Assembly: GCF_025840185.1 (NCBI RefSeq) | Contig: NZ_JAMPJU010000014.1 | Span: 1-64,000 of the forward strand | Length of the DNA: 64,000 bases | Reading direction: 5' to 3' | Source of the DNA: Brenneria izbisi | GTDB lineage: Bacteria > Pseudomonadota > Gammaproteobacteria > Enterobacterales > Enterobacteriaceae | Part shown: in pieces, positions 51,514 through 62,753 of the stretch | Layout: each line of letters starts with the position of its first letter | Position numbering within the stretch: the stretch's first letter is position 1 | Made by a program: the position numbers and the translations under genes | Notes under the pieces: model-generated | The model's database searches: none | Seen by the model: the letters and a program-made list of their open reading frames with translations, nothing else | What the model was told of the DNA's origin: nothing

Positions 51514-52495
51514 GATCCGCAATATTAATAAACAATTTGGTCAGTTTCGGGCGCTGAACGACATCAATCTGTCGATCCAGAGCGGTGAACTGGTGGCGCT
51601 GCTGGGGCCTTCGGGGTGTGGTAAGACCACGTTATTGCGCATTATCGCCGGTCTGGAGCAGCCTGACAGCGGCAGCATCATTTTCCACGGTGAAGACGTC
51701 TCGATTCATGATGTCCGCAAACGTAATGTCGGGTTCGTGTTTCAGCATTATGCGCTGTTCCGGCATATGACGGTATTCGACAACGTAGCGTTCGGCCTGC
51801 GCATGAAGCCGAAAAATATTCGGCCCGCAAAGCGTGAAATCGAACAAAAAGTTCACGAATTACTGAATCTGGTTCAGTTGGACTGGCTGGCGGATCGGTA
51901 TCCCGAACAGCTTTCCGGCGGACAGCGCCAGCGGATCGCGCTGGCGCGCGCGTTGATTGTCGAGCCCAGTATATTGTTGCTGGACGAACCTTTTGGCGCG
52001 CTGGATGCCAAGGTGCGTAAAGAGTTGCGTCGCTGGTTGTCTCAGTTGCATGAAAATATCAATCTGACATCGGTGTTTGTCACCCATGATCAGGAAGAAG
52101 CGATGGAAGTCGCCGATCGTATTGTACTGATGAACAAAGGCGTTATTGAACAGATTGGCACCCCGGATGAAGTTTACAATCGTCCGGCCAGCGAGTTCGT
52201 TTATCACTTTCTGGGTGACAGTAACCGGCTGAAGATCGCGCAGACCGATGAAACCATCCTGTTCCGTCCGCATGAAGTGGCGTTGTCTGCTCAGGCGCAG
52301 GAAGGCTACCAGCCGGTGGTCGTCAGGGATATCCGACCGCTGGGCGCATTGACGCGCTTATCGCTGAAACTTGCCGATGAACAAGAACTTATCGAAGCGG
52401 AAGTGGCGAAAGATGATCTCAGCCTGAATGGTTTGCAAAAAGGGGATGTGATTCAGTTCAAGCCCAAACGTTATAACCATGATTGGGAGATTTAA
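51503..52495 (+). CDS. cysA: Sulfate/thiosulfate ABC transporter ATP-binding protein
   Basis: A 330-residue ATPase. Walker A is GPSGCGKTT, signature LSGGQRQR, Walker [13 protein letters not shown]-loop VTHDQEEA; a C-terminal TOBE-like domain follows. It is somewhat shorter than E. coli CysA (365). The cysM gene that follows cysA in E. coli is absent; the nitrile cluster starts next in the opposite direction. Confidence 0.95.
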
Positions 52496-52562
52496 ATTCC
52501 CGCCTTAACGCCAACAGTATCGCTGTTGACCTTCTCTTCAACTCAGCATATCGGAACAATGA

Positions 52563-52596
52563 TCGCCGGTTCCCGTCAAATCATGGGAACCGGCGA
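52563..52596. terminator. Long hairpin between cysA and the nitrile operon
   Basis: A perfect 12-bp stem (TCGCCGGTTCCC / GGGAACCGGCGA, 10-nt loop) lies between two convergent operons. The T-runs are weak, but a bidirectional terminator is the best reading. Confidence 0.65.
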
Positions 52597-52610
52597 ACTT
52601 TCTGCGTTCT

Positions 52611-53288
52611 TTATGCGGATTGATAAAGCCGTTTCTCAACCAGCGCGCTGCCTTGCAGACGATTTGCCGCTTTCGCAACCGACAGCACGGCCAGATCCAC
52701 CAGCGGTTCGACGATGATGACCATCATATAAGCGCCGCCAAACGATAGCACGGATGAGATATTCCCAGCGGTAAAGCCCTGACCGTAAAACGCCCAGAAC
52801 GCAACCCAGGTCACGATACCGGCCTGATAAGTGCTCGAAAGCGCCAGCGCCTGACGATAGGTCAGTTCGACATACGGGGTATCTGGCCGGATGATGCGTT
52901 TAGCCAGCGCGGAGAGCGCAAACAGCGGCGCCAGCAGCGTGGTGACGTTCATGCCGTATTGCGGCAGATCGAAAGGGGAGAAGAACAGGCCTTGAGTCAA
53001 CAGTCCCAACGCCAGACCGATGGCCGCAGGCGCGGCGCCGAACAGCAGGAACAGCGTCGAACCGAGAATGAGGTGTACTTCGGAAACGCCGACCGGATGG
53101 TGCGGCAAAACCTGAAAGAAACTGAAAACCAGCAGCGTGCAGGCAAGGGAGCGCGACGCCAACGACAGCAGGCCACGTTCACGCGTCGCCGACAGCGCCT
53201 GCTTGAGGGTATAGGTTCCGATGCCCGCCGCCGAGAGATAACTCAGCCAGATTTTACCGTTTTCAACAACGCCTGGTTCAATATGCAT
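52611..53288 (-). CDS. CbiM-type cobalt permease (energy-coupling-factor family)
   Basis: A 225-residue membrane protein with about six hydrophobic segments and the CbiM hallmark N-terminus MHIEPG, in which His2 helps bind cobalt or nickel. Other CbiM-like parts are VSEVHLILGSTLFLLFG and FFSPFDLPQYGMN. No CbiN, CbiQ or CbiO partner is adjacent, so it may use components from elsewhere or work alone. It is the last gene of the aldoxime-nitrile operon, after a strong AAAGGAG ribosome site. The nitrile hydratase here is of the cobalt type, so supplying Co(II) is its probable job. Known nitrile hydratase clusters more often use a NiCoT protein (NhlF). Confidence 0.78.
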   Translation of the reverse strand: MHIEPGVVENGKIWLSYLSAAGIGTYTLKQALSATRERGLLSLASRSLACTLLVFSFFQVLPHHPVGVSEVHLILGSTLFLLFGAAPAAIGLALGLLTQGLFFSPFDLPQYGMNVTTLLAPLFALSALAKRIIRPDTPYVELTYRQALALSSTYQAGIVTWVAFWAFYGQGFTAGNISSVLSFGGAYMMVIIVEPLVDLAVLSVAKAANRLQGSALVEKRLYQSA

Positions 53289-53337
53289 TGATAACTCCTT
53301 TGCCGTCCTGATTGACGGCGTTGAATGGAATTGCTGT

Positions 53338-53362
53338 GCCAGACGTTCAGAAGACGTCTGGC
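53338..53362. repeat. Hairpin sharing the CCAGACGT core with 60343-60373
   Basis: GCCAGACGT / ACGTCTGGC 9-bp stem with a 7-nt loop, between the accessory-protein and cobalt-permease genes. The same core arm recurs at 60343-60373. Confidence 0.5.
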
Positions 53363-53396
53363 GCTGCGCTTTTTAGCCGCGGAATGCGTGCGCTTT

Positions 53397-53834
53397 TCAA
53401 CCGCTAAACGCCGGACTGACAGCCACCGGCGCCCGCTGCGGCGAGTGGTGGTGATCATGGGGGTGGGCTGGCGGACAGTCGGCGTGCGCCAGCAGCACGG
53501 GTTGACCATGCGGGGTATTGAGATAAGCCTGTCGCCATGCCTGCGCCCGCTGCGAGATGTCATCTTCGCCGGTAAATCCGAGAGAAGCCATCATCTTTTC
53601 CATCGCGGCGGCCCACTGACGGTAGTAGGCGTCATTCACGCTTTCCTCCGGCATGGCTGGCGCCGCCTTGATCTCTTCGCTGAATGCCTGCACCCACTCG
53701 CGCCAGGTGAAACATCCCGCCTGATGCAGATGAACCGTCAGTGAGAAAATCTGCGCCTGCCACGGCTTGTCGAACACCGGGCCTTCTTCGTCCCGCGGCA
53801 AGTCAATTGCCTCATAATGGTGTTGCGTCGCCAT
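53397..53834 (-). CDS. Nitrile hydratase accessory (activator) protein
   Basis: A 145-residue protein of the nitrile hydratase accessory family, related to the beta-subunit N-terminus (RDEEGPVFDKPWQAQIFSLTV, then FTWREWVQAFSEEI and YYRQWAAAMEKMM). Such proteins insert or exchange metal-loaded alpha subunits (self-subunit swapping). The C-terminus is unusually His-rich (PPAHPHDHHHSP), suggesting a metal-binding tail for cobalt delivery. It starts 2 bp after the beta-subunit stop with GGAGG upstream. Confidence 0.88.
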   Translation of the reverse strand: MATQHHYEAIDLPRDEEGPVFDKPWQAQIFSLTVHLHQAGCFTWREWVQAFSEEIKAAPAMPEESVNDAYYRQWAAAMEKMMASLGFTGEDDISQRAQAWRQAYLNTPHGQPVLLAHADCPPAHPHDHHHSPQRAPVAVSPAFSG

Positions 53835-53836
53835 GT

Positions 53837-54490
53837 TTATGCCTCCTCCAGATAGTCATCCCACAGATCGATATAGACTTTGTCCGCGCGCGTTTCGCCC
53901 CACAGTTCCTGAGCGGTGAAGCTCACGCTGTAGACATGCTGCGGATGTTCGCCCAGACCATGCGCCATGGTGTCCGGCGTGGCGAAAACGCCGTGATCGA
54001 ACTCGATCGTACCGACTTTGCCGCGCACGTAGCGCGGCAGACGGGTGTGGGTGGTCGGATTGATGTTCTTCGTGCGAACCTGATCGCCCGCCTTAAAATG
54101 GGCGGCTACGTCGTGGGCGACGCGGGCGGAGGCGCCGGTTTTAACCACCAGCGGCACCATGTCATTGGTTAGCACCGATGGGGCGGGCATTGCGGCAACC
54201 GTTTCAACCGCGCCCTGAAGTTCGGCGGCGGAGATCACGCCTTTTTCGCACAACAGCATCTCGATCGCATGCAACCAGTGCTCGTAATAGCTGGAGAGCA
54301 GGTAATTGGCGGGATCCATACGCTCCATGGCATGGCGGAACTCATCCACATTGAAATGCCCGCCAGCGAAGAGCGCCGGGAACAGTGAGAACATCCTGCG
54401 CTCCCAGTCATGGTGGAAGTAAGGTTCATTCTCTTCGGCGAGGATCGGGCCGTGGCCGTGCATGCCGCCAAGATCGTGTATTCCGTTCAT
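53837..54490 (-). CDS. nthB: Nitrile hydratase, beta subunit
   Basis: A 217-residue beta subunit that forms the alpha-beta dimer and frames the active site. It begins MNGIHDLGGMHGHGPI, the conserved start, and the C-terminal SH3-like barrel contains THTRLPRYVRGKVGTIEFD and YSVSFTAQELWGE. The Arg residues expected to contact the oxidised Cys of the alpha subunit lie in LPRYVRGK and near the N-terminal half (HAMERM). It follows nthA by 17 bp with GAGGAG upstream. Confidence 0.96.
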   Translation of the reverse strand: MNGIHDLGGMHGHGPILAEENEPYFHHDWERRMFSLFPALFAGGHFNVDEFRHAMERMDPANYLLSSYYEHWLHAIEMLLCEKGVISAAELQGAVETVAAMPAPSVLTNDMVPLVVKTGASARVAHDVAAHFKAGDQVRTKNINPTTHTRLPRYVRGKVGTIEFDHGVFATPDTMAHGLGEHPQHVYSVSFTAQELWGETRADKVYIDLWDDYLEEA

Positions 54491-54507
54491 GCGTTGCTCC
54501 TCATGCG

Positions 54508-55122
54508 TTATGACGCGGTAGTTGGGGCGAGGGGAAGGCCGGTTCCAATCATGGCGTCCCTGGTGACGAGTTCGGCCAGTTGTTCCTCGTTCCAGCCATC
54601 GGTTCCCGCTGGTCGTTCCGGCAGCACCAGATAACGCAACTCGGCGCTGCTGTCCCAGACGCGGATCTCTTTGTCCGCGGGGATTTCCAGCCCGAATTCC
54701 GCCAGCACGCTGCGCGGTTCGATCACGATGCGCGACCGGTAAGGCGCGGATTTATACCAGGCTGGCGGCAGTCCCAGCGTCGGCCAGGGGTAGCAGGAAC
54801 ATAATGTACAAACGGTCACGTTATGTACCTGAGGCGTATTTTCCACCACCAGCATGTCTTCTCCCTGAACGCCGGAGAAACCCAGTTCGGCAATGGCTGT
54901 CGTGGCGTTTTCCAGCAGTCGCCGTTTGTAGTGCGCATCGGTCCATGCTTTGGCGACGACTTGCGCGCCATTGCGCGGCCCGATTTTGTTTTCGTAAGTA
55001 TCTATCAATGTATCGAGGGCGGCAGGGTCGATCAGCCCTTTCTCACGCAGCAGCGATTCCAGCGCCTTGACGCGCAGTTCGATATCCGCGGGCGGTTCAG
55101 TGTGATCGTGCTTATGGCTCAT
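54508..55122 (-). CDS. nthA: Nitrile hydratase, alpha subunit, cobalt type
   Basis: A 204-residue catalytic subunit hydrating nitriles to amides. The metal-claw motif is Cys105-Thr-Leu-Cys108-Ser109-Cys110 ([11 protein letters not shown]). Thr in the second place marks the cobalt class; iron enzymes have Ser. Cys108 and Cys110 should be oxidised to sulfinic and sulfenic acid. The following [12 protein letters not shown] and [17 protein letters not shown] are conserved. A His-rich start (MSHKHDH) is noted. AAGGAG precedes the ATG. The alpha-before-beta order is the order of iron-type and some cobalt-type clusters. Confidence 0.97.
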
Positions 55123-55149
55123 ATCAAGCTCCTTACTGTGTCGGGGGCG

Positions 55150-56664
55150 TTAGCATTTTTGCCAGTCATAATCCGCTTCGAGTGCGGCGGCGGCCTGGTA
55201 AATGGTGCTTTCGGCATAATGACGGCCAACCAGCATCAGTCCTACCGGCAGACCATCAACCCGCCCGCAGGGAACGGACATGGCCGGGTGGCCGGTAATA
55301 TCCAGCGGCGCGGTGTTGCCGATCATCTCAAATGCACGCGTGATGTACTCGGTGATGGAGCAGCCTGGCTCCGGTAATGGCTGGGCGGTGATCGGCACGG
55401 TGGGCATGACCAGCAGATCGTAGCGGGACAGGGCATCATCATAGCCAGCGCGCGCCTTGCGCGCCAGATTCTGGGCTTTGGCATAGTAGCGGCCCTGATA
55501 GTGTTCCAGCCCGTACTGACCGACGAACATACACACCTTGAGCGAGGCGGCTAGGGCATCGGCGTGGTTCCGCCAGTCGGCGTGCTTATCCAGTAAGGCG
55601 ACATCGTATTGGCCTTTCCAGCTAAAGCCCATACCGTTGCCGTGCATCATCTGCGCGGTCAACCCTTCGCAGCCGATGGGCGACCAGATCGCGCCCGCCA
55701 GCGTATGCGCAGGAACGGAAACCTCTTCGATCACTGCGCCCAGACTTTCCAGACGCGCAATGGCTTCACGTACCTTGTCGCTGACTCTGGGGTCCTGATT
55801 GCCCAGTTGGAAGCCTTCAGTCAGGATGCCGATTTTCAGCCCTTTGACGCCGCGGCTCAGCGCATCGCTGTAGGTCTCGACCGGTGGCGCATACTGGCGC
55901 GGATCCAGACCGTCCGCTCCGGCCAGAACTTCCAGCATCAGGGCGTTGTCGCGCACATTGCGGGTGATGGGGCCAACGTGGTCGATGGTGGCTTCAATCG
56001 GCATGACGCCGGTGTAAGGCACCAGACCGTGAGTCGGTTTCAAACCGTAGGTGCCGCAGAAGGCGGAAGGAATGCGGATGGAACCGCCCTGATCAGCGCC
56101 AATCGCCATGTCCACTTCCCCGGCGGCGACCAGTGCGGCGCTGCCGGAGGATGAACCGCCTGCCGCATAGCCGTGGCGATGCGGGTTATGCACGGGCGCG
56201 GGATCGGAAGTGTGGCTGCCACCAGAGAGGCAGAAATGTTCGCAGGTCGCTTTACCGAGAATGGTGGCGCCGGCGTCCAGCAGGCGAGTGACCACGGTGG
56301 CGTCGAAAGTCGGAACAAACCCTTCGAGCGTTGATGTACCGTTCATCATCGGCACGTTGGCCAGAGAGACATTGTCCTTGAGAACCACGGTGCGCCCGGC
56401 CAGTTTTCCCTCCGCCGCGCCTTTCACCTCGGCCTTATAGTACCAGGCGTTATAACGGTTTTCGTCGCCGGTTGGCCGGTAGCCCGCCGTGCGCGGATAA
56501 CGTACCTGCGGCATGTCATCGGGCAGTGAGTCGATCAGGTCGTAGGCGTCGAAGTTGGGTTGCATCAAGGCCAGATATTCGCTGGCTTGTTCCGGCGTCA
56601 GACTCATGTGCAGACGGCTGGCGATAGCCAGAAGTTGTTCAATATTAGGACGAGTGATTGCCAT
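55150..56664 (-). CDS. Amidase, amidase-signature family
   Basis: A 504-residue AS-family amidohydrolase that should convert amide to carboxylate and ammonia. The catalytic triad can be read as Lys96 (VVLKDNVS), cis-Ser171 ([10 protein letters not shown]) and Ser195 ([10 protein letters not shown]), with the normal 24-residue Ser-Ser distance. The family is the one that accompanies nitrile hydratases in Rhodococcus and Pseudomonas clusters. It lies between the outer-membrane protein gene and nthA, so the amide made by NthAB would be its substrate. Substrate range (aliphatic or aryl) cannot be read. AGGAGA precedes the ATG. Confidence 0.94.
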
Positions 56665-56739
56665 AAGTTCTCCTGTTCTTGTTTTGCGCCGGACTAACCG
56701 CCCGGTTAGAAAAATATAGGGTTCCCGCTTCCCCCCTGC

Positions 56740-56777
56740 TTGGTTGGGAAGGACAGCCCTTTGGTTGGGAAGGACAG
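56740..56777. repeat. Two tandem 17-bp direct repeats upstream of the amidase
   Basis: TTGGTTGGGAAGGACAG occurs at 56740-56756 and 56761-56777, identical, with a 21-bp period (two helical turns). It lies in the 146-bp gap between the outer-membrane protein gene and the amidase gene. Confidence 0.85.
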
Positions 56778-56810
56778 TTCCTTCACATCCTGAACGGCGG
56801 GCAGACGGCG

Positions 56811-57677
56811 TCAGAAAACTCTGGCGTAACGCAGGTTCATGCGAAAGTCTTCTTTGGCGCCGTTCTCCACCGACAGATCCCGCCCCAGTTGTATCTGCAC
56901 CTGATCTTTGGGTGTGACGAACTTGGCGGCGGTGAGACGGATATTGGTGGTGTTCTGCTTGTTGTCCTGATCGACGCCGTCGATGGTGGTTTCGCCGCCC
57001 CAGTTATGACCAAAGCCAATGCCGAAGGAGGTGGTTGTATCCGGCATATAGCGCCCCATGATCTGAGCGGTGTAGGAAATATCCTGCTCCAGACGGACTG
57101 AATTGGCGCTAAAGTCGTTGTTATCGCCGTACCAGATGGCATCGCCGACCAGATCGATGGCCCACTTGTCCGAGAAGTGCTTGACGTAGGCGGCCTGGAG
57201 GTCGATTTTCCAGCGGTTCTCCCCCAGATTAAGCGCATCATCCTTGTGGTAACGGCCAGTGGGGACATAGAGATAAGGCGTGAAACTGAGCGTATCGCTG
57301 GCGCTGTTGAGGCGTAGTTTGACTGGCGCTGCCAGGATGAGATCGCCCGTGCCGCTGGCATCCCCCAGCGCGGAGGCGTCAGCGCTGCCCGATAAGCGAC
57401 CGAAAGGCAACAGGAACTGCGGATCGATGGTGACGGTATCGCTGAGCGCGTAAACATGCAGTAAACGGAGCATGCCGATGTCTGACTTCAGGTTAAAATC
57501 CGAACTGGTCTGGCGGCCCTGAGCGTAAAGGGAGTCGGTGGTGGCGTGTTGATAATAGAGCAAACCCAATGTCGTACCCACAGGCAATTGCTCATAGTCG
57601 CCGGGCGTCACTTCGACGGCCTGAGTATGGAATGCCGGCAACAGCGCGGCGAGAAAAAGATAACGTGACTTGCTCAT
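56811..57677 (-). CDS. Outer-membrane beta-barrel protein (SphA/phenol-MetA-degradation family)
   Basis: A 288-residue exported protein. Residues 1-20 are a Sec signal ([15 protein letters not shown]). The mature part is a series of amphipathic strands ending in Phe (LRYARVF), the usual beta-barrel C-terminus, and resembles the SphA/PF13557 family found in clusters for aromatic-compound and nitrile degradation. A likely role is to let the hydrophobic aldoxime or nitrile cross the outer membrane. I chose ATG 57677 because of the signal peptide and a strong AGGAG site. It lies between oxd and the amidase gene. Confidence 0.8.
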
Positions 57678-57699
57678 CGTGATGCTCCTGTGGAAAGGG

Positions 57700-58758
57700 T
57701 TAGCCCTGGTTCGATTGCGCATCGCGCAACATACCGGTTTGCGGGTGGCAGTTGATGTATTCGAATACCTGACTTTGTTCGTTCGATACCGATACCTCGT
57801 GGTACAGACGCAGGTTGGTCAGGCCGGCGGCCACGCGGAAAAAGGTGGTGAAGATCCGTAAGTGGGTCGGGTGGGACTCCGCCCAGCGCTCAAGCTTTTC
57901 CACCGAGCGCCAGTGGCCGATGTTATAGCTCAGATCGAGCAGATTTCCTTGCAGATCGATATTGCGTACAAAGCGGTTGCTGTAGCATCCCACCGTCTGA
58001 CCGTTGTCGGTGAGGAAATCCATCCCGGCCTGCAAGGTCGGCAGGATCTCGTCGAGATACAATGCGCGCTCATCCGCTTCGGCATTCACCCAATCCTGGC
58101 CGGAACGGATGAGGGCGATGTTGTCATGGCCTTGAACCACCACGCGCCCCCCTTTCGCCGGGTCGCCAGCGATCACCCGCAACACGCCGGATGGTTGCAT
58201 CCAGTCCGTCTGGGAGACGGGGAAGCGGTCGCGCATCGAACCCCAGTAGCCATGTTCTTCAATTTCGTCGCTGATGCCGTCCATAACGGCGCCGACGCCG
58301 GGCAGGTTGTCGCGAAAGGCGTACAACGTCTCAAACTGTTCAGCGCACGGCGCCACGATCTCGCGGAAGTAGCCCAGACCTTCGTTCAGGCGTTCGTCAG
58401 CCGCCCACCACCCGGTTACTGCCGGCGAGCGCAGCCAGCGGCAGTGGGAGGCGGGATCTTTCCAGTAACCGGCGATCATCAGATTCCCGTAACCCTGATT
58501 ATCGATATGCTGGGTCAGATCATAATGTTGCGGGCCGTCAGGCAGATCGAAGCTGGCAACGATGCGACGCATGGCTTCCAGCGCGGCGGGGCGTTGCTCC
58601 TCGTCGCGGAACTGCACGCCGAAATAAGCCATTACCACCTGTTGCAGGCGCTCGTCGGCCCGTCCCACCCACATGGGGAAGGGGGGCTGATAGTCGTCGG
58701 GGACGCGGCGGGATAACGTCCGGGGGCACTTGAGGTGCTTGTCGATGGCGGATTCCAT
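57700..58758 (-). CDS. oxd: Aldoxime dehydratase, heme-containing
   Basis: A 352-residue heme enzyme that dehydrates aldoximes (R-CH=N-OH) to nitriles. All key residues known from the Rhodococcus enzyme OxdRE occur at the same numbers: proximal heme ligand His299 (PTHLRIF), catalytic His320 (LRLYHEVSV), Arg178 (RDRFP) and Ser219 (IRSGQDW). The length also equals the family. It is the first gene of the operon, with AGGAG before the ATG, and is divergent from the AraC-type regulator. Phenylacetaldoxime dehydratase is the usual family name, but the substrate range is broad in known members. Confidence 0.95.
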   Translation of the reverse strand: MESAIDKHLKCPRTLSRRVPDDYQPPFPMWVGRADERLQQVVMAYFGVQFRDEEQRPAALEAMRRIVASFDLPDGPQHYDLTQHIDNQGYGNLMIAGYWKDPASHCRWLRSPAVTGWWAADERLNEGLGYFREIVAPCAEQFETLYAFRDNLPGVGAVMDGISDEIEEHGYWGSMRDRFPVSQTDWMQPSGVLRVIAGDPAKGGRVVVQGHDNIALIRSGQDWVNAEADERALYLDEILPTLQAGMDFLTDNGQTVGCYSNRFVRNIDLQGNLLDLSYNIGHWRSVEKLERWAESHPTHLRIFTTFFRVAAGLTNLRLYHEVSVSNEQSQVFEYINCHPQTGMLRDAQSNQG

Positions 58759-59196
58759 GAGGGCTCCTGTTCTGGTTTATCAAGATCGGATTTGCCGATG
58801 ACGGTTTCACATCAGGTTCGGCGCGTTTTCTGATGAAATCTTGCCGGTTCTGCTTGCTTTGATCGGGAGACTGAAACCCCGATAAGCCAGAGGTTACTGC
58901 TTGTATCCGGTGACTTGCTTGTCTCAGAAAGACAGTCGTTTGGCTGACAGCGACATCCGGCGGAGACTCAGTCGGGTAAGGAGAAAAGGAAGGGGGGCGG
59001 ATGAGTGTCGTTGGTGCGTGATTGATCCATTTTGGGGCGGTTGAGCGCCGGAACAGGTGACTGGCGTTTGAACCACCTGGCGGCCAGGCCAGCGTTTCTC
59101 TGGCTGTCAGGCGTGCGAGGAGGCTCTGGCACGGTATTTGCGTCAGTTAAGGGACTGTTTACTGTTCTTCGGTGATCTGTTAACGCGAGGCAGTTC
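58759..59196. promoter_or_regulatory. Divergent regulatory region between oxd and the AraC-type gene
   Basis: 438 bp without a gene. It must hold the promoters of the nitrile operon (minus) and of the regulator (plus). No palindrome stands out; a GTCTCAGAAAGAC mini-hairpin at about 58920-58932 and repeated CTTGCTT motifs are visible, but nothing decides an operator. Confidence 0.5.
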
Positions 59197-60126
59197 ATGA
59201 GTAATACTCAATATTCGACTATCGCGGTTGCTGCGCCACAGCGCTTCGAATACTGGAAGGAAGTGGTGTTGCGCCATTGTATTCCCGCTGCCAGTAAGCC
59301 TTTATCTCACTGTGATTTCGACGGTCAGCTTAAGGTTCATGGGGTGGGGCTATTGGATATTTGCACGTTGTCCGCGCCGTTGCATTACTGGGAGCGAACG
59401 CCGCGTCATTTGCGTACCGGCCCCAACGATGACCTGTGGCTTGGTTTTACCCGCCACGGTCATGGACAACTGGAGCAGGGAGGACGCCGGGCGGCGCTGG
59501 CGGCGAATAGCCTGGTGCTCTACGATGCTTCCCAGACTTTTCGCTTTAGCCTTGGCGGTACTGATAATCATCTGGTTCGCATTCCTCGTCACCTGCTGAG
59601 TACCCGATTGCCTGGCGTCGAGAATCTCACCGCCGTGGTGCTGGACGATCGTCGTCCGGGGGTGGTGCCGCTGCGCGAAATGCTCTATCAGGTTGCGGTT
59701 GAACCGATAGGATTACACGATGACGATATATCCGGGCGTTTCTCCCAGACATTGCTGGATCTGCTGGTATTGAGTCTTGAGCTTCAGGATTTGGCGAAAA
59801 ATAGCATAGAGCGCGATCTGTATGCGCGGATGATGAACTATATCCGCCGTCATTTGACCGAACCGGATTTGAACATCGAACGCATCGCCGGCGCGCATCA
59901 TGTCTCCAGCCGAACGGTTACCAGAGCCTTTGCGCGTCATCAGAAAACGCCGATGTCGGTTATCTGGCATGAACGTTTACAGGCTAGCCGGGATGCGATT
60001 GAACGCGGCAATGTACGCAGCATTTCTCAGGCCGCGCTGGACTTTGGCTTCTCCGATTTTTCGCATTTCAGCCATGCTTTCCGCAAGGCTTTCGGCGTGA
60101 CGCCGCATTCCCTGCTGAAACGATGA
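59197..60126 (+). CDS. AraC-family transcriptional regulator of the aldoxime-nitrile operon
   Basis: A 309-residue regulator. The N-terminal part (about 1-195) is the AraC_binding_2 sensing domain (FEYWKEVVLRH, FTRHGHGQLEQGGR). The C-terminus carries two helix-turn-helices (NIERIAGAHHVSSRTVTRAF and ISQAALDFGFSDFSHFSHAF, then FGVTPHSLLKR). AraC-type activators of the same type sit next to oxd genes in Rhodococcus and Pseudomonas. It is divergent from oxd, and therefore likely activates the operon in response to an aldoxime or nitrile. Confidence 0.88.
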   Translation: MSNTQYSTIAVAAPQRFEYWKEVVLRHCIPAASKPLSHCDFDGQLKVHGVGLLDICTLSAPLHYWERTPRHLRTGPNDDLWLGFTRHGHGQLEQGGRRAALAANSLVLYDASQTFRFSLGGTDNHLVRIPRHLLSTRLPGVENLTAVVLDDRRPGVVPLREMLYQVAVEPIGLHDDDISGRFSQTLLDLLVLSLELQDLAKNSIERDLYARMMNYIRRHLTEPDLNIERIAGAHHVSSRTVTRAFARHQKTPMSVIWHERLQASRDAIERGNVRSISQAALDFGFSDFSHFSHAFRKAFGVTPHSLLKR

Positions 60127-60300
60127 GAGCAGCGTTGCGTTATGGTGTTAGGTCATCAGTCAGGGCGGCTTTAAACGAAAGTGACGGGGGGGGAATAACG
60201 TGATGACGCTGCATTCAACATGGGCCGATAGAATTTCTACTCTCAGCGGTGTCGGCCATTTGCTCTGGTTTTTACGCTATGAGGAATGACGCATACAGAC

Positions 60301-60340
60301 GAAAAAAACCGTATTACCGTCAACAGTGATACGGTTTTTT
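60301..60340. terminator. Terminator after the AraC-type gene
   Basis: AAAAAACCGTAT / ATACGGTTTTTT stem, 14-nt loop, A and T tracts on both sides. Confidence 0.85.
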
Positions 60341-60342
60341 AT

Positions 60343-60373
60343 TTCCCCAGACGTCGACAAGACGTCTGGGGAA
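60343..60373. repeat. Perfect 13-bp hairpin (TTCCCCAGACGTC arms)
   Basis: TTCCCCAGACGTC pairs fully with GACGTCTGGGGAA around a 5-nt loop. The CCAGACGTC core also forms the hairpin at 53338-53362 in the nitrile operon. Confidence 0.8.
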
Positions 60374-60380
60374 GGGATAG

Positions 60381-60398
60381 TGGTGGGTCGTGCAGGAT
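60381..60398 (-). repeat. 18-bp duplicate of the tRNA-Lys 3' end
   Basis: The 18 bp TGGTGGGTCGTGCAGGAT equal the 3' end (with CCA) of the tRNA-Lys gene at 60627-60644, in the same orientation and 246 bp apart. It could be an attachment-site duplication from an integrated element or the stub of a second tRNA-Lys gene. Confidence 0.75.
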
Positions 60399-60534
60399 GA
60401 CTCGGCCTCTGCTGGTGTCGCCCCTTCGGGGTCAACGCCGACGCGTTGTTATCTCGCTACGCTTGGCGCGAACCTGAACGCAGGTTATTCGTCTCATTCT
60501 GTGACTCACTCACAGGGCCAACGCAAACGTTGTT

Positions 60535-60557
60535 CAAAACCATTTTCAATGGTTTTG
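60535..60557 (-). terminator. Hairpin downstream of the tRNA-Lys/Val operon
   Basis: AAAACCATT / AATGGTTTT stem with a 3-nt loop, about 70 bp after tRNA-Lys on the minus strand. It is a possible terminator of the tRNA operon. Confidence 0.45.
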
Positions 60558-60626
60558 TCTTACCTGCACAACAGCACAAGATATTATTTAAGGCGATTGA
60601 TTTTAGAAAGGAATACTTTGCGGAAT

Positions 60627-60702
60627 TGGTGGGTCGTGCAGGATTCGAACCTGCGACCAATTGATTAAAAGTCAACTGCTCTACCAACTGAGCTAACGAC
60701 CC
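60627..60702 (-). tRNA. lysV: tRNA-Lys (TTT)
   Basis: 76 nt with encoded CCA; acceptor GGGTCGT pairs with ACGACCC, and the anticodon loop CTTTTAA carries TTT. It is identical or nearly so to E. coli tRNA-Lys. It is last in the valUXY-lysV-like cluster next to gltX. Confidence 0.97.
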
Positions 60703-60709
60703 GCAGAAG

Positions 60710-60785
60710 TGGTGGGTGATGACGGGATCGAACCGCCGACCCCCTCCTTGTAAGGGAGGTGCTCTCCCAGCTGAGCTAATCACCC
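60710..60785 (-). tRNA. tRNA-Val (TAC), copy 3
   Basis: 76 nt with CCA; acceptor GGGTGAT, anticodon loop CTTACAA carrying TAC. It is identical to the other two copies and lies 7 bp upstream of tRNA-Lys in the same transcript. Confidence 0.97.
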
Positions 60786-60827
60786 ACATCTGTACTCCAT
60801 TAAACAAGAAGACAGCTGGTATGAGAT

Positions 60828-60903
60828 TGGTGGGTGATGACGGGATCGAACCGCCGACCCCCTCCTTGTAAGGGAGGTGCTCTCCCAGCTGAGCTAATCA
60901 CCC
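60828..60903 (-). tRNA. tRNA-Val (TAC), copy 2
   Basis: Identical to the copies at 60710 and 60971; 42-bp spacer to copy 3. Confidence 0.97.
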
Positions 60904-60970
60904 AATCTCAAATCTTCTTGCTTCACACAACGTATTTCACTTTTCACGACATATCATCGTGCTAAAAGTG

Positions 60971-61046
60971 TGGTGGGTGATGACGGGATCGAACCGCCGA
61001 CCCCCTCCTTGTAAGGGAGGTGCTCTCCCAGCTGAGCTAATCACCC
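60971..61046 (-). tRNA. tRNA-Val (TAC), copy 1
   Basis: First gene of the tRNA operon, 76 nt with CCA, identical to the other two; 67-bp spacer to copy 2. Confidence 0.97.
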
Positions 61047-61063
61047 TCGCTGTGTGGAGTCGC

Positions 61064-61091
61064 ATTATAGGGATAGTTGAAAGTGAGTCAA
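61064..61091 (-). promoter_or_regulatory. Sigma-70 promoter of the tRNA-Val/Lys operon
   Basis: On the minus strand TTGACT (61086-61091), a 16-bp spacer and a perfect TATAAT (61064-61069), with a GC-containing discriminator (GCGACTCC) before tRNA-Val copy 1. Strong stable-RNA promoter. Confidence 0.85.
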
Positions 61092-61337
61092 CGCTTTTTA
61101 AAACTAAAAGGCGTGTTCGTTGTAAAATTAGTCAGGGCGCTTTATTTCTCGCCGCGGATGTCGCATCTTTGGGCAATTCGGCGGGTAATCAACAGATTCT
61201 GCCAGTAATAAACGTGGGTGTGAGGCGTTACAGCGTTGAGGAATCGAGGCAGAGTGATAGAATATCGGCCACTTTCGTTATCTGAACTCATGTCGGTATA
61301 CGCCGACAGCCGTCGCGTAATAAGGCTTTAATCCCAA

Positions 61338-62753
61338 ATGAAAATCAAAACCCGTTTCGCCCCCAGTCCAACTGGCTACCTGCATGTCGGTGGCGCCCGT
61401 ACCGCACTCTATTCCTGGTTATTCGCCCGTCATCAGGGCGGCGAGTTTGTTCTGCGTATTGAAGATACTGACCTGGAACGCTCCACACAGGACGCCATCG
61501 ATGCCATTATGGATGGTATGAACTGGCTGAATCTGGATTGGGATGAAGGTCCATATTTCCAGACCAAGCGTTTTGATCGTTATAACGCGGTTATCGATCA
61601 GATGTTGGAAAACGATACGGCTTATAAATGCTATTGTTCGAAAGAACGGCTGGAAGCGCTGCGTGAAACGCAGATGGCAAACGGCGATAAACCGCGTTAT
61701 GACGGTCACTGCCGTGATTCTCATGAACATCATGCCGATAATGAACCGCATGTGGTGCGTTTTCGTAACCCGCAGGACGGTTCTGTTATTTTTAACGACC
61801 GGATTCGCGGGCCGATTGAGTTCAGCAATCAGGAACTGGATGATTTGATCATTCGTCGTACCGATGGTTCGCCGACCTATAACTTCTGTGTGGTGATAGA
61901 TGACTGGGATATGGAAATCACCCATGTGATCCGTGGTGAAGACCACATCAACAATACACCGCGCCAAATCAATATCTTGAAAGCGTTGCATGCGCCGGTT
62001 CCGGAATATGCGCATGTTTCCATGATCCTGGGTGACGATGGCAAGAAACTATCCAAGCGCCACGGTGCGGTCGGTGTCATGCAGTATCGTGATGATGGTT
62101 ACCTGCCGGAAGCCTTACTCAACTATCTGGTGCGTTTGGGCTGGTCGTGCGGCGATCAGGAAATTTTCTCTGTTGAAGAGATGAAAAACCTGTTTTCTCT
62201 GGATGCGGTCAGCAAATCAGCCAGCGCGTTTAATACGGAAAAGCTGCAATGGCTTAATCACCACTATATTAATCATCTGCCGGCGGAATACGTGGCGACG
62301 CATCTTTCATGGCACATTGAACAAGCTGGTATTGATACCCGCAATGGCCCGCAATTAAGCGAACTGGTGACGCTGTTGGGCGAGCGTTGCAAGACGCTGA
62401 AGGAAATCGCTGCTTCCTGCCGTTATTTCTATGAAGATTTTGAGCAGTTTGATGCCGATGCTGCGAAGAAACACCTGCGTCCGGTCGCGCGTCAGCCGCT
62501 GGAACTGGTACGCGCAAAGCTGGCCGCCATCACTGACTGGACAGCGGAAAATATTCATCATGCCATTCAGGGAACGGCTGATGAACTGGGACAAGGCATG
62601 GGCAAAGTCGGGATGCCGCTGCGTGTGGCGGTGACGGGCGCCGGACAGTCTCCTGGCGTTGACGTAACGGTAAAAGCGATAGGTCAGCAGCGTGCGCTGG
62701 CGCGTATTGACAAAGCGTTAGCATTTATTGCCGAGCGTGAAGCACAGCAATAA
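61338..62753 (+). CDS. gltX: Glutamyl-tRNA synthetase
   Basis: A 471-residue class I synthetase charging tRNA-Glu; glutamyl-tRNA also feeds HemL's pathway. The HIGH-like motif is [11 protein letters not shown], the KMSKS-like motif KLSKRHG (about 237-243), and a Cys-x-Cys region ([11 protein letters not shown] with [10 protein letters not shown]) is the zinc site. The C-terminal anticodon-binding domain is complete. It is divergent from the tRNA operon, as in E. coli. Confidence 0.97.

Follow-up and report, generated by a model that had tools for sequence, protein, structure and literature searches.

The first 64,000 nucleotides of contig NZ_JAMPJU010000014.1 of Brenneria izbisi (the whole stretch analysed, henceforth the window) contain at positions 52611-60126 a cluster of eight intact genes, seven on the minus strand and one divergent regulator gene on the plus strand. 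In order of transcription, the minus-strand genes encode an aldoxime dehydratase (Oxd), an outer-membrane protein (OMP), an amidase (Ami), the nitrile hydratase (NHase) subunits NthA and NthB, the NHase activator P14K and a CbiM-like permease (Table 1). All eight predicted proteins exceed Pfam cut-offs (PF01891, NHase_beta_N for both P14K and NthB, NHase_alpha, PF01425, PF13557, the Dehydratase_hem family PF13816, and HTH_18 with AraC_binding_2), ruling out a chance array of open reading frames (ORFs). P14K, NthB, NthA, the amidase and Oxd also pass NCBIfam equivalog or subfamily cut-offs; the permease, the OMP and the AraC-type regulator pass none. Gene order, intactness and family membership thus agree with the original prediction, which had been made from the letters and a list of ORFs.

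Table 1. Genes and predicted regulatory features of the cluster, by window position
Feature	Position	Strand	Evidence
CbiM-like permease, 225 aa, solitary cobalt/nickel S-component-like	52611..53288	-	PF01891 64 bits; fold match
P14K nitrile hydratase activator, His-rich C-tail	53397..53834	-	TIGR03889 99.6 bits, cut-off 46; 7 His in last 45 residues
NthB, nitrile hydratase beta subunit	53837..54490	-	TIGR03888 282 bits, cut-off 152
NthA, nitrile hydratase alpha subunit, Co-type motif CTLCSC	54508..55122	-	TIGR01323 315 bits, cut-off 250; PDB 3qxe
Amidase, PF01425 family	55150..56664	-	NF005565 855 bits, cut-off 545; best PDB match 3a1k
-10-like hexamer TATATT, predicted ami promoter	56713..56718	-	5/6 to TATAAT; 21 nt past operator; best of 16 offsets
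Predicted AraC operator 2, upstream of amidase gene	56738..56776	-	exact match to pattern from alignment around the other operator
Outer-membrane protein, Phenol_MetA_deg family	56811..57677	-	PF13557 128.6 bits, cut-off 22; start from ribosome site and signal-like N-terminus
Oxd, aliphatic aldoxime dehydratase	57700..58758	-	NF050090 680 bits, cut-off 600; PDB 3w08, 3a15
Predicted AraC operator 1, two direct half-sites, 21-bp period, upstream of oxd	58917..58955	-	conserved in 7 aligned divergent regions
AraC/XylS-type regulator, FeaR-like	59197..60126	+	PF12833 60.7 bits, PF14525 54.2 bits

The near-perfect ribosome sites that had been noted were recovered, with AGGAG lying 5-8 nt ahead of the ATG in all seven minus-strand genes. 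The gene for an outer-membrane barrel was retained as a member of the PF13557 family, but its listed start at 57722 is too early, and the ribosome site and signal-like N-terminus favour 57677. With this start, the intergenic gaps in transcription order are 22, 146, 27, 17, 2 and 108 nt; the description of the gaps as short therefore fits those of 22, 27, 17 and 2 nt, but neither the 146-nt gap, which holds a predicted operator, nor the 108-nt gap between the P14K and cbiM genes. The latter contains a 12-pair hairpin (53336-53364), scored as a terminator for plus-strand transcription only, which may affect cbiM expression.

Predicted pathway enzymes

Oxd, NHase and amidase are encoded together, as in aldoxime-nitrile pathway clusters. 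Oxd falls within the OxdA equivalog and matches solved OxdA over its full length (3w08 covers residues 1-347 and 3a15 residues 1-348). The nearest solved relative of NthA is a cobalt (Co)-type NHase, that of the amidase 3a1k. NthA carries CTLCSC, described as the Co-type NHase motif in PMC2667541, and is accompanied by an activator that scores above the P14K cut-off; the motif recurs in nine of the nine related loci scanned for it besides the window. An iron (Fe)-type NHase, which would have CSLCSC in this position, was rejected on this motif. The three enzymatic steps of the original prediction are thus supported by matches to curated family models and to solved structures of close relatives.

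Based on these assignments, Oxd would dehydrate an aliphatic or arylaliphatic aldoxime to the nitrile, a Co-type NthAB matured by P14K would hydrate the nitrile to the amide, and the amidase would release ammonia and the carboxylic acid. The OMP probably eases passage of a hydrophobic substrate or product across the outer membrane. We consider it probable that the cluster forms a complete aldoxime-nitrile-amide-acid module with its own cobalt permease and an AraC-type protein activating two transcripts; it counts against this reading that the activities, the transcripts and the binding to the operators are all deduced from sequence.

The CbiM-like permease and its slot

The CbiM-type permease of the original prediction stands at the level of the Pfam family (PF01891 cut-off, 23.1 bits), but the similarity to CbiM is remote, the best NCBIfam CbiM score being 23.6 bits against an equivalog cut-off of 173. 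A phmmer search against the PDB returned nothing, and the best profile match had an E-value of 0.049. The AlphaFold model (mean pLDDT 83.8) matched 4m58 and 5x3x chain m (CbiM) as its best PDB folds, with probability 1.00 and TM scores of 0.65 and 0.59, followed at ranks 3-8 by thiamin S-components. The protein begins with Met-His, as do NikM and CbiM, and M1, H2, E70 and H72 are invariant among 25 aligned homologues; H72 corresponds to position 67 of 4m58, likewise a His (counted by hand; profile E-value 0.06). Family, fold, N-terminal Met-His and internal His are those of a CbiM/NikM S-component. Three points speak against a firm assignment as a cobalt permease: the E-values of the CbiM fold matches are weak (0.043 and 0.15, none at or below 0.001), the confidence of the model is lowest close to the presumed metal site (pLDDT 57 over residues 1-10 and 56 over residues 61-70), and sequence cannot tell the metal specificity of the permease.

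The CbiM/NikM fold handles both cobalt and nickel. The permease might accordingly carry nickel or another metal, or bring in cobalt for B12 alone, and be a mere neighbour of the NHase genes, as its failure to reach the NCBIfam CbiM cut-off and the title of 4m58 (a transition metal transporter) would allow. We regard this as very unlikely, given that several lineages link the family to NHase, that cobalamin riboswitches accompany it elsewhere, and that the cobalt system CbtBA occupies the same slot in other clusters. Among loci carrying a CbiM-family gene, Rfam places a cobalamin riboswitch just upstream of it in six of eight without NHase and in none of six NHase-linked ones; the two exceptions, L031 and a lone Brenneria copy (L110), lack the riboswitch and weaken the B12 link. 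In 39 of 69 loci a B12-box word lies no more than 350 nt upstream, compared with none of nine that are NHase-linked (Fisher p = 0.002; two loci with short upstream DNA excluded), over a background of 184 in 7526 windows (2.4%). By names assigned by eye, genes for B12 biosynthesis rank among the most frequent neighbours, CobB-, CobA-, CobL-, CobW- and CobN-like ones occurring in 11, 10, 8, 5 and 5 of 82 loci, respectively. On a tree of 83 CbiM proteins, from which L017 was left out as a copy of L110, the NHase label needs six changes, at least five of them forced by well-supported branches; L084, whose NthA gene is 6.5 kb off, counts as NHase-linked in this tree and not in the B12-box comparison. 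A known riboswitch on the window's own cbiM was rejected, the Rfam scan of 52000-61400 yielding four tRNAs, RtT, one plastid match below threshold and nothing else. The link of the CbiM family to cobalamin riboswitches, together with the Co motif of NthA, supports the metal supply claimed for the module, and we favour a permease that would supply Co(II) to NthA without the usual CbiQ partner.

The gene that follows P14K varies among related clusters. A CbiM-like gene occupies this position in the window and in Halotalea, Pseudomonas, Citrobacter freundii and a Rhizobium; in the clusters of two Pantoea, of Rahnella, of Klebsiella michiganensis and of two Agrobacterium, CbtB-CbtA and a histidine phosphatase stand there instead. 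The Brenneria genome G008 holds an Oxd cluster of a second type, again with CTLCSC in NthA; here an ABC importer (ATPase, permease and binding protein, named by eye; the ATPase a 33% match to CysA) lies between NthB and the amidase. CbtAB and the BtuF-like CbtJKL are described as B12-linked cobalt systems (PMC2667541, PMC7689651). The predicted cobalt-importer slot is thus exchangeable, accepting CbiM, CbtBA or an ABC importer. This suggests that Co-type NHase is limited by cobalt in its natural hosts, a shortage that cells overcome by capturing importers of the types found in B12 regulons.

The B. izbisi genome (3.9 Mb in 66 contigs) contains cbi genes for B12, some of them named by eye. Its sole CbiM match is the window permease, and a search for importers confined to CbiM, CbiQ and NicO found neither CbiQ (PF02361, no match; positive in 10 of 14 control genomes) nor NicO. 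The B12 operon on its contig C25 (L119:5772-8008) lacks cbiMNQO, and cbiL overlaps cbiP; in the Brenneria genomes G002 and G008, cbiMNQO-like genes (CbiQ by Pfam, the rest by eye) stand between these two genes. Across nine Brenneria genomes, CbiC is found in all and CbiQ in four. CbiQ is lacking in three of three genomes with a window-type operon versus two of six others, a difference that is not significant (Fisher two-sided p = 0.17), and we rejected CbiQ loss as proven compensation for the gain of cbiM. That the solitary CbiM of the nitrile module is now the main specific cobalt importer of these Brenneria, in place of cbiMNQO, seems doubtful to us; if true, B12 synthesis would depend on, or compete with, an aldoxime-induced permease.

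Predicted AraC operators and transcription units

Alignment of the AraC-oxd intergenic region from seven clusters revealed the motif TGTC-N9-CAA twice, as direct half-sites with a 21-bp period. Within the window, exact matches to the two-site pattern lie in the AraC-oxd region and, unexpectedly, in the gap between the OMP and amidase genes, and 100 shuffles gave none; these are its only two copies in the genome. Among the nine Brenneria genomes, that of B. izbisi itself, G004 and G005 have two exact copies each in the same places and G008 has two overlapping matches; the pattern is absent from G001, G002, G003, G006 and G007, and a backward-read control gave none in all nine. The matches in G008 belong to three tandem half-sites that end 214 nt upstream of the start of the lone cbiM (L110:8560-9509), and this genome also has a one-mismatch site ahead of oxd. 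The lone cbiM lies on another contig than the Oxd cluster of G008 and adjoins genes that by eye resemble type-I-secretion genes.

Allowing up to two mismatches, nine of 14 oxd-bearing clusters have both sites, two have the oxd site only and three have neither, a count that takes in the distant Oxd-nitrilase cluster of the Enterobacterales genome G301. The site ahead of the amidase gene recurs in other Brenneria, Halotalea, Pseudomonas, Pantoea, Klebsiella and Citrobacter (two mismatches), and 1.25 Mb of sequence from 70 other loci contained no match with zero or one mismatch. Because the same 1.25 Mb held 15 matches with two mismatches, it is mainly their position that supports the two-mismatch sites of Pantoea and Rahnella. 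No exact site is present in the Oxd-less NHase cluster of G001, which has an AraC protein of 46% identity; even with two mismatches allowed, its nthA gene is not preceded by one. A -10-like hexamer with at least four of six matches starts 19-21 nt past 15 of the 21 sites examined (best of 16 offsets, without a shuffle control).

The regulator has the C-terminal helix-turn-helix of the AraC family (PF12833 cut-off, 33.6 bits) and falls short of the FeaR equivalog (118.6 against 199 bits). We infer that it binds the two direct repeats and activates, rather than represses, two transcripts, oxd-omp and ami-nthA-nthB-P14K-cbiM; the effector is probably an aldoxime, nitrile or amide. Several results pull the other way: the clusters of Rhizobium (L145), A. 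vitis (L149) and G301 (L115) have no site in the expected place at up to two mismatches; such matches arise by chance about once per 83 kb and at a mean of 0.34 in window shuffles; the -10 of the oxd promoter is weak (three of six) beside the good one of ami; and a sigma-70 scan placed no promoter in either intergenic region, and its two hits in the stretch compare with an average of 3.7 in shuffles. Dependence of the promoters on an activator could explain the empty scan, and we do not count it as support.

The original prediction had all seven minus-strand genes in a single operon. Their shared orientation, the ribosome sites and the mostly short gaps are what a single transcript from a promoter upstream of oxd would require, and read-through from oxd-omp into ami is possible; the repeat at 56738-56776 would then be a relic or a chance match. 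The second site, however, is exact, is followed by TATATT at a nearly equal spacing and recurs before the amidase gene in other genera, and we think one operon rather unlikely. Since the only two exact operators of the genome precede oxd and the amidase gene, two co-activated transcripts appear likelier. The predicted operator makes the regulon directly testable and connects it to a lone cbiM in another part of a genome.

Distribution, likely role and known systems

The nearest named match to the cluster is in Brenneria salicis (CbiM 98% and Oxd 95% identical). In the window it sits between cysPTWA and a tRNA-Lys/Val-gltX block (cys and glt names by eye), the same place that it occupies in G004 and G005. 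The cysA-tRNA gap of genomes without it measures 0.14 kb in G002, 0.2 kb in G003, 0.9 kb (small ORFs only) in G001 and 2 kb in G006, and in G007 and G008 it holds 7 to 7.5 kb of other genes. These include, by eye, a MacAB/TolC-type export set (L107, L108) and a family of proteins of about 270 aa, seen also in G006. The seven minus-strand genes have a GC content of 59%, compared with 53% for the window, and the 7.5-kb segment with the highest GC starts at 52500. Acquisition into a hotspot is the simplest reading; a genomic island carrying an integrase of its own was considered as well.

PF13816 exceeds its cut-off in two of 394 Enterobacterales genomes, that of B. izbisi and G301, with a weak match below cut-off in G410; among 59 relatives, Oxd was found in four including B. 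izbisi, all of them Brenneria. The cluster of G301 (L115) is of a different kind, with an Oxd 34% identical and, by eye, nitrilase-like and TonB-receptor-like genes. A survey by CbiM similarity, which kept 80 loci of 457 relatives found, recovered the whole eight-gene order in five: B. salicis, Halotalea and three Pseudomonas. In B. salicis DSM 30166 (L011:8193-8802), NthA is frame-broken into two overlapping pieces in different frames; the window copy is intact. The G001 stretch has an AraC-NthA-NthB-P14K-CbiM cluster without Oxd, in which NthB is split over two frames (L109:7680-8338). Among plasmids, parts of the cluster are matched in 228 records, and eight stretches were read. Plasmids of Pantoea vagans, Pantoea At-9b and Rahnella show the same order up to P14K. 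The OMP gene is present in seven of the eight stretches (38-67% identity) and absent from Citrobacter; in Rhizobium and both Agrobacterium stretches it lies between the amidase and NthA genes. The Klebsiella michiganensis plasmid has a truncated haemoglobin gene between the OMP and amidase genes (L146:6372-6854), and no Oxd is annotated in that stretch.

The combination with an OMP and a CbiM permease had been thought unusual, and the same gene order had been proposed for a search in other Enterobacterales. Because this order occurs in Halotalea, Pseudomonas and Brenneria, and up to P14K on the Pantoea and Rahnella plasmids, neither the enterobacterial host nor the OMP gene is unusual; the Pantoea cluster was published in 2011 (PMC3137637). 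Pathway and headline gene combination were already known, leaving the pathway inference sound and not new. What we add is the predicted regulon with its two operators, the interchangeable cobalt-importer slot and the absence of cbiMNQO. An open-access literature search found no paper pairing Brenneria with nitrile hydratase, and none joining aldoxime dehydratase, nitrile hydratase, amidase, gene cluster and cobalt transporter; five papers name nitrile hydratase together with CbiM, and two name it with CbtA.

What might the pathway be used for? Because B. salicis lives in willow, and the nitrile-making poplars belong to the willow family, the likeliest role is the use or detoxification of plant aldoximes and nitriles resembling methylbutyronitrile and benzyl cyanide. 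Upon herbivory poplar makes 2- and 3-methylbutyronitrile and benzyl cyanide (PMC6196558). Such a pathway would let a plant-associated bacterium use or disarm these compounds; Oxd-NHase pairs also serve in biocatalysis. A module that instead makes indole-3-acetic acid from plant indole-3-acetaldoxime, a role proposed for the cluster of Pantoea vagans C9-1 (PMC3137637) and for Pseudomonas UW4 (PMC3596284), is in our view unlikely here. The window Oxd falls in the aliphatic OxdA equivalog, the poplar nitriles fit this aliphatic reading, and OxdK, 90% identical to the B23 enzyme 3w08, barely accepts indole-3-acetaldoxime, with a relative activity of 1% against 100% on isovaleraldoxime (PMC8955678). 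We therefore retain catabolism or detoxification as the favoured role.

How does the cluster compare with known systems? The window CbiM shares the S-component fold and Met-His with the ECF cobalt transporter CbiMNQO (PMC7689651; the cbi operons of G002 and G008), but the similarity is remote and the B. izbisi genome has no CbiQ match. NhlF of Rhodococcus rhodochrous is likewise a cobalt permease, of a kind found near cobalt NHase genes, but it belongs to the NiCoT family and not to CbiM (PMC7689651), and the B. izbisi genome has no NicO match. In P. chlororaphis B23 and Rhodococcus N-771, Oxd, amidase and the two NHase subunits are clustered as in the window, but the NHase is of the Fe type with a P47K activator (PMC8955678). 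The genes PputUW4_03348 to 03352 of Pseudomonas sp. UW4, compared by their numbering only, give Oxd, one further gene, amidase and two NHase genes, with cbtAB elsewhere in the genome (PMC3596284). Plasmid pPag2 of the Enterobacterales species Pantoea vagans C9-1 (NC_014563.1; PMC3137637) has a divergent HTH regulator, Oxd, an outer-membrane 'transporter', amidase, NthA, NthB and accessory protein in the same order, with two-mismatch operator copies before oxd and the amidase gene; it differs in being plasmid-borne, in having CbtB-CbtA and a histidine phosphatase in place of CbiM and in proteins that are 59-83% identical. Finally, the clusters of Pseudomonas GM50, NFACC02 and RIT288 and of Halotalea alkalilenta DSM 17697 do not lie at cysA-gltX (no gltX match in their loci) and show 63-86% protein identity, but they carry the full set of eight genes, with order and orientation unchanged, together with both predicted operators, exact or, before the amidase gene of GM50 and RIT288, with one mismatch.

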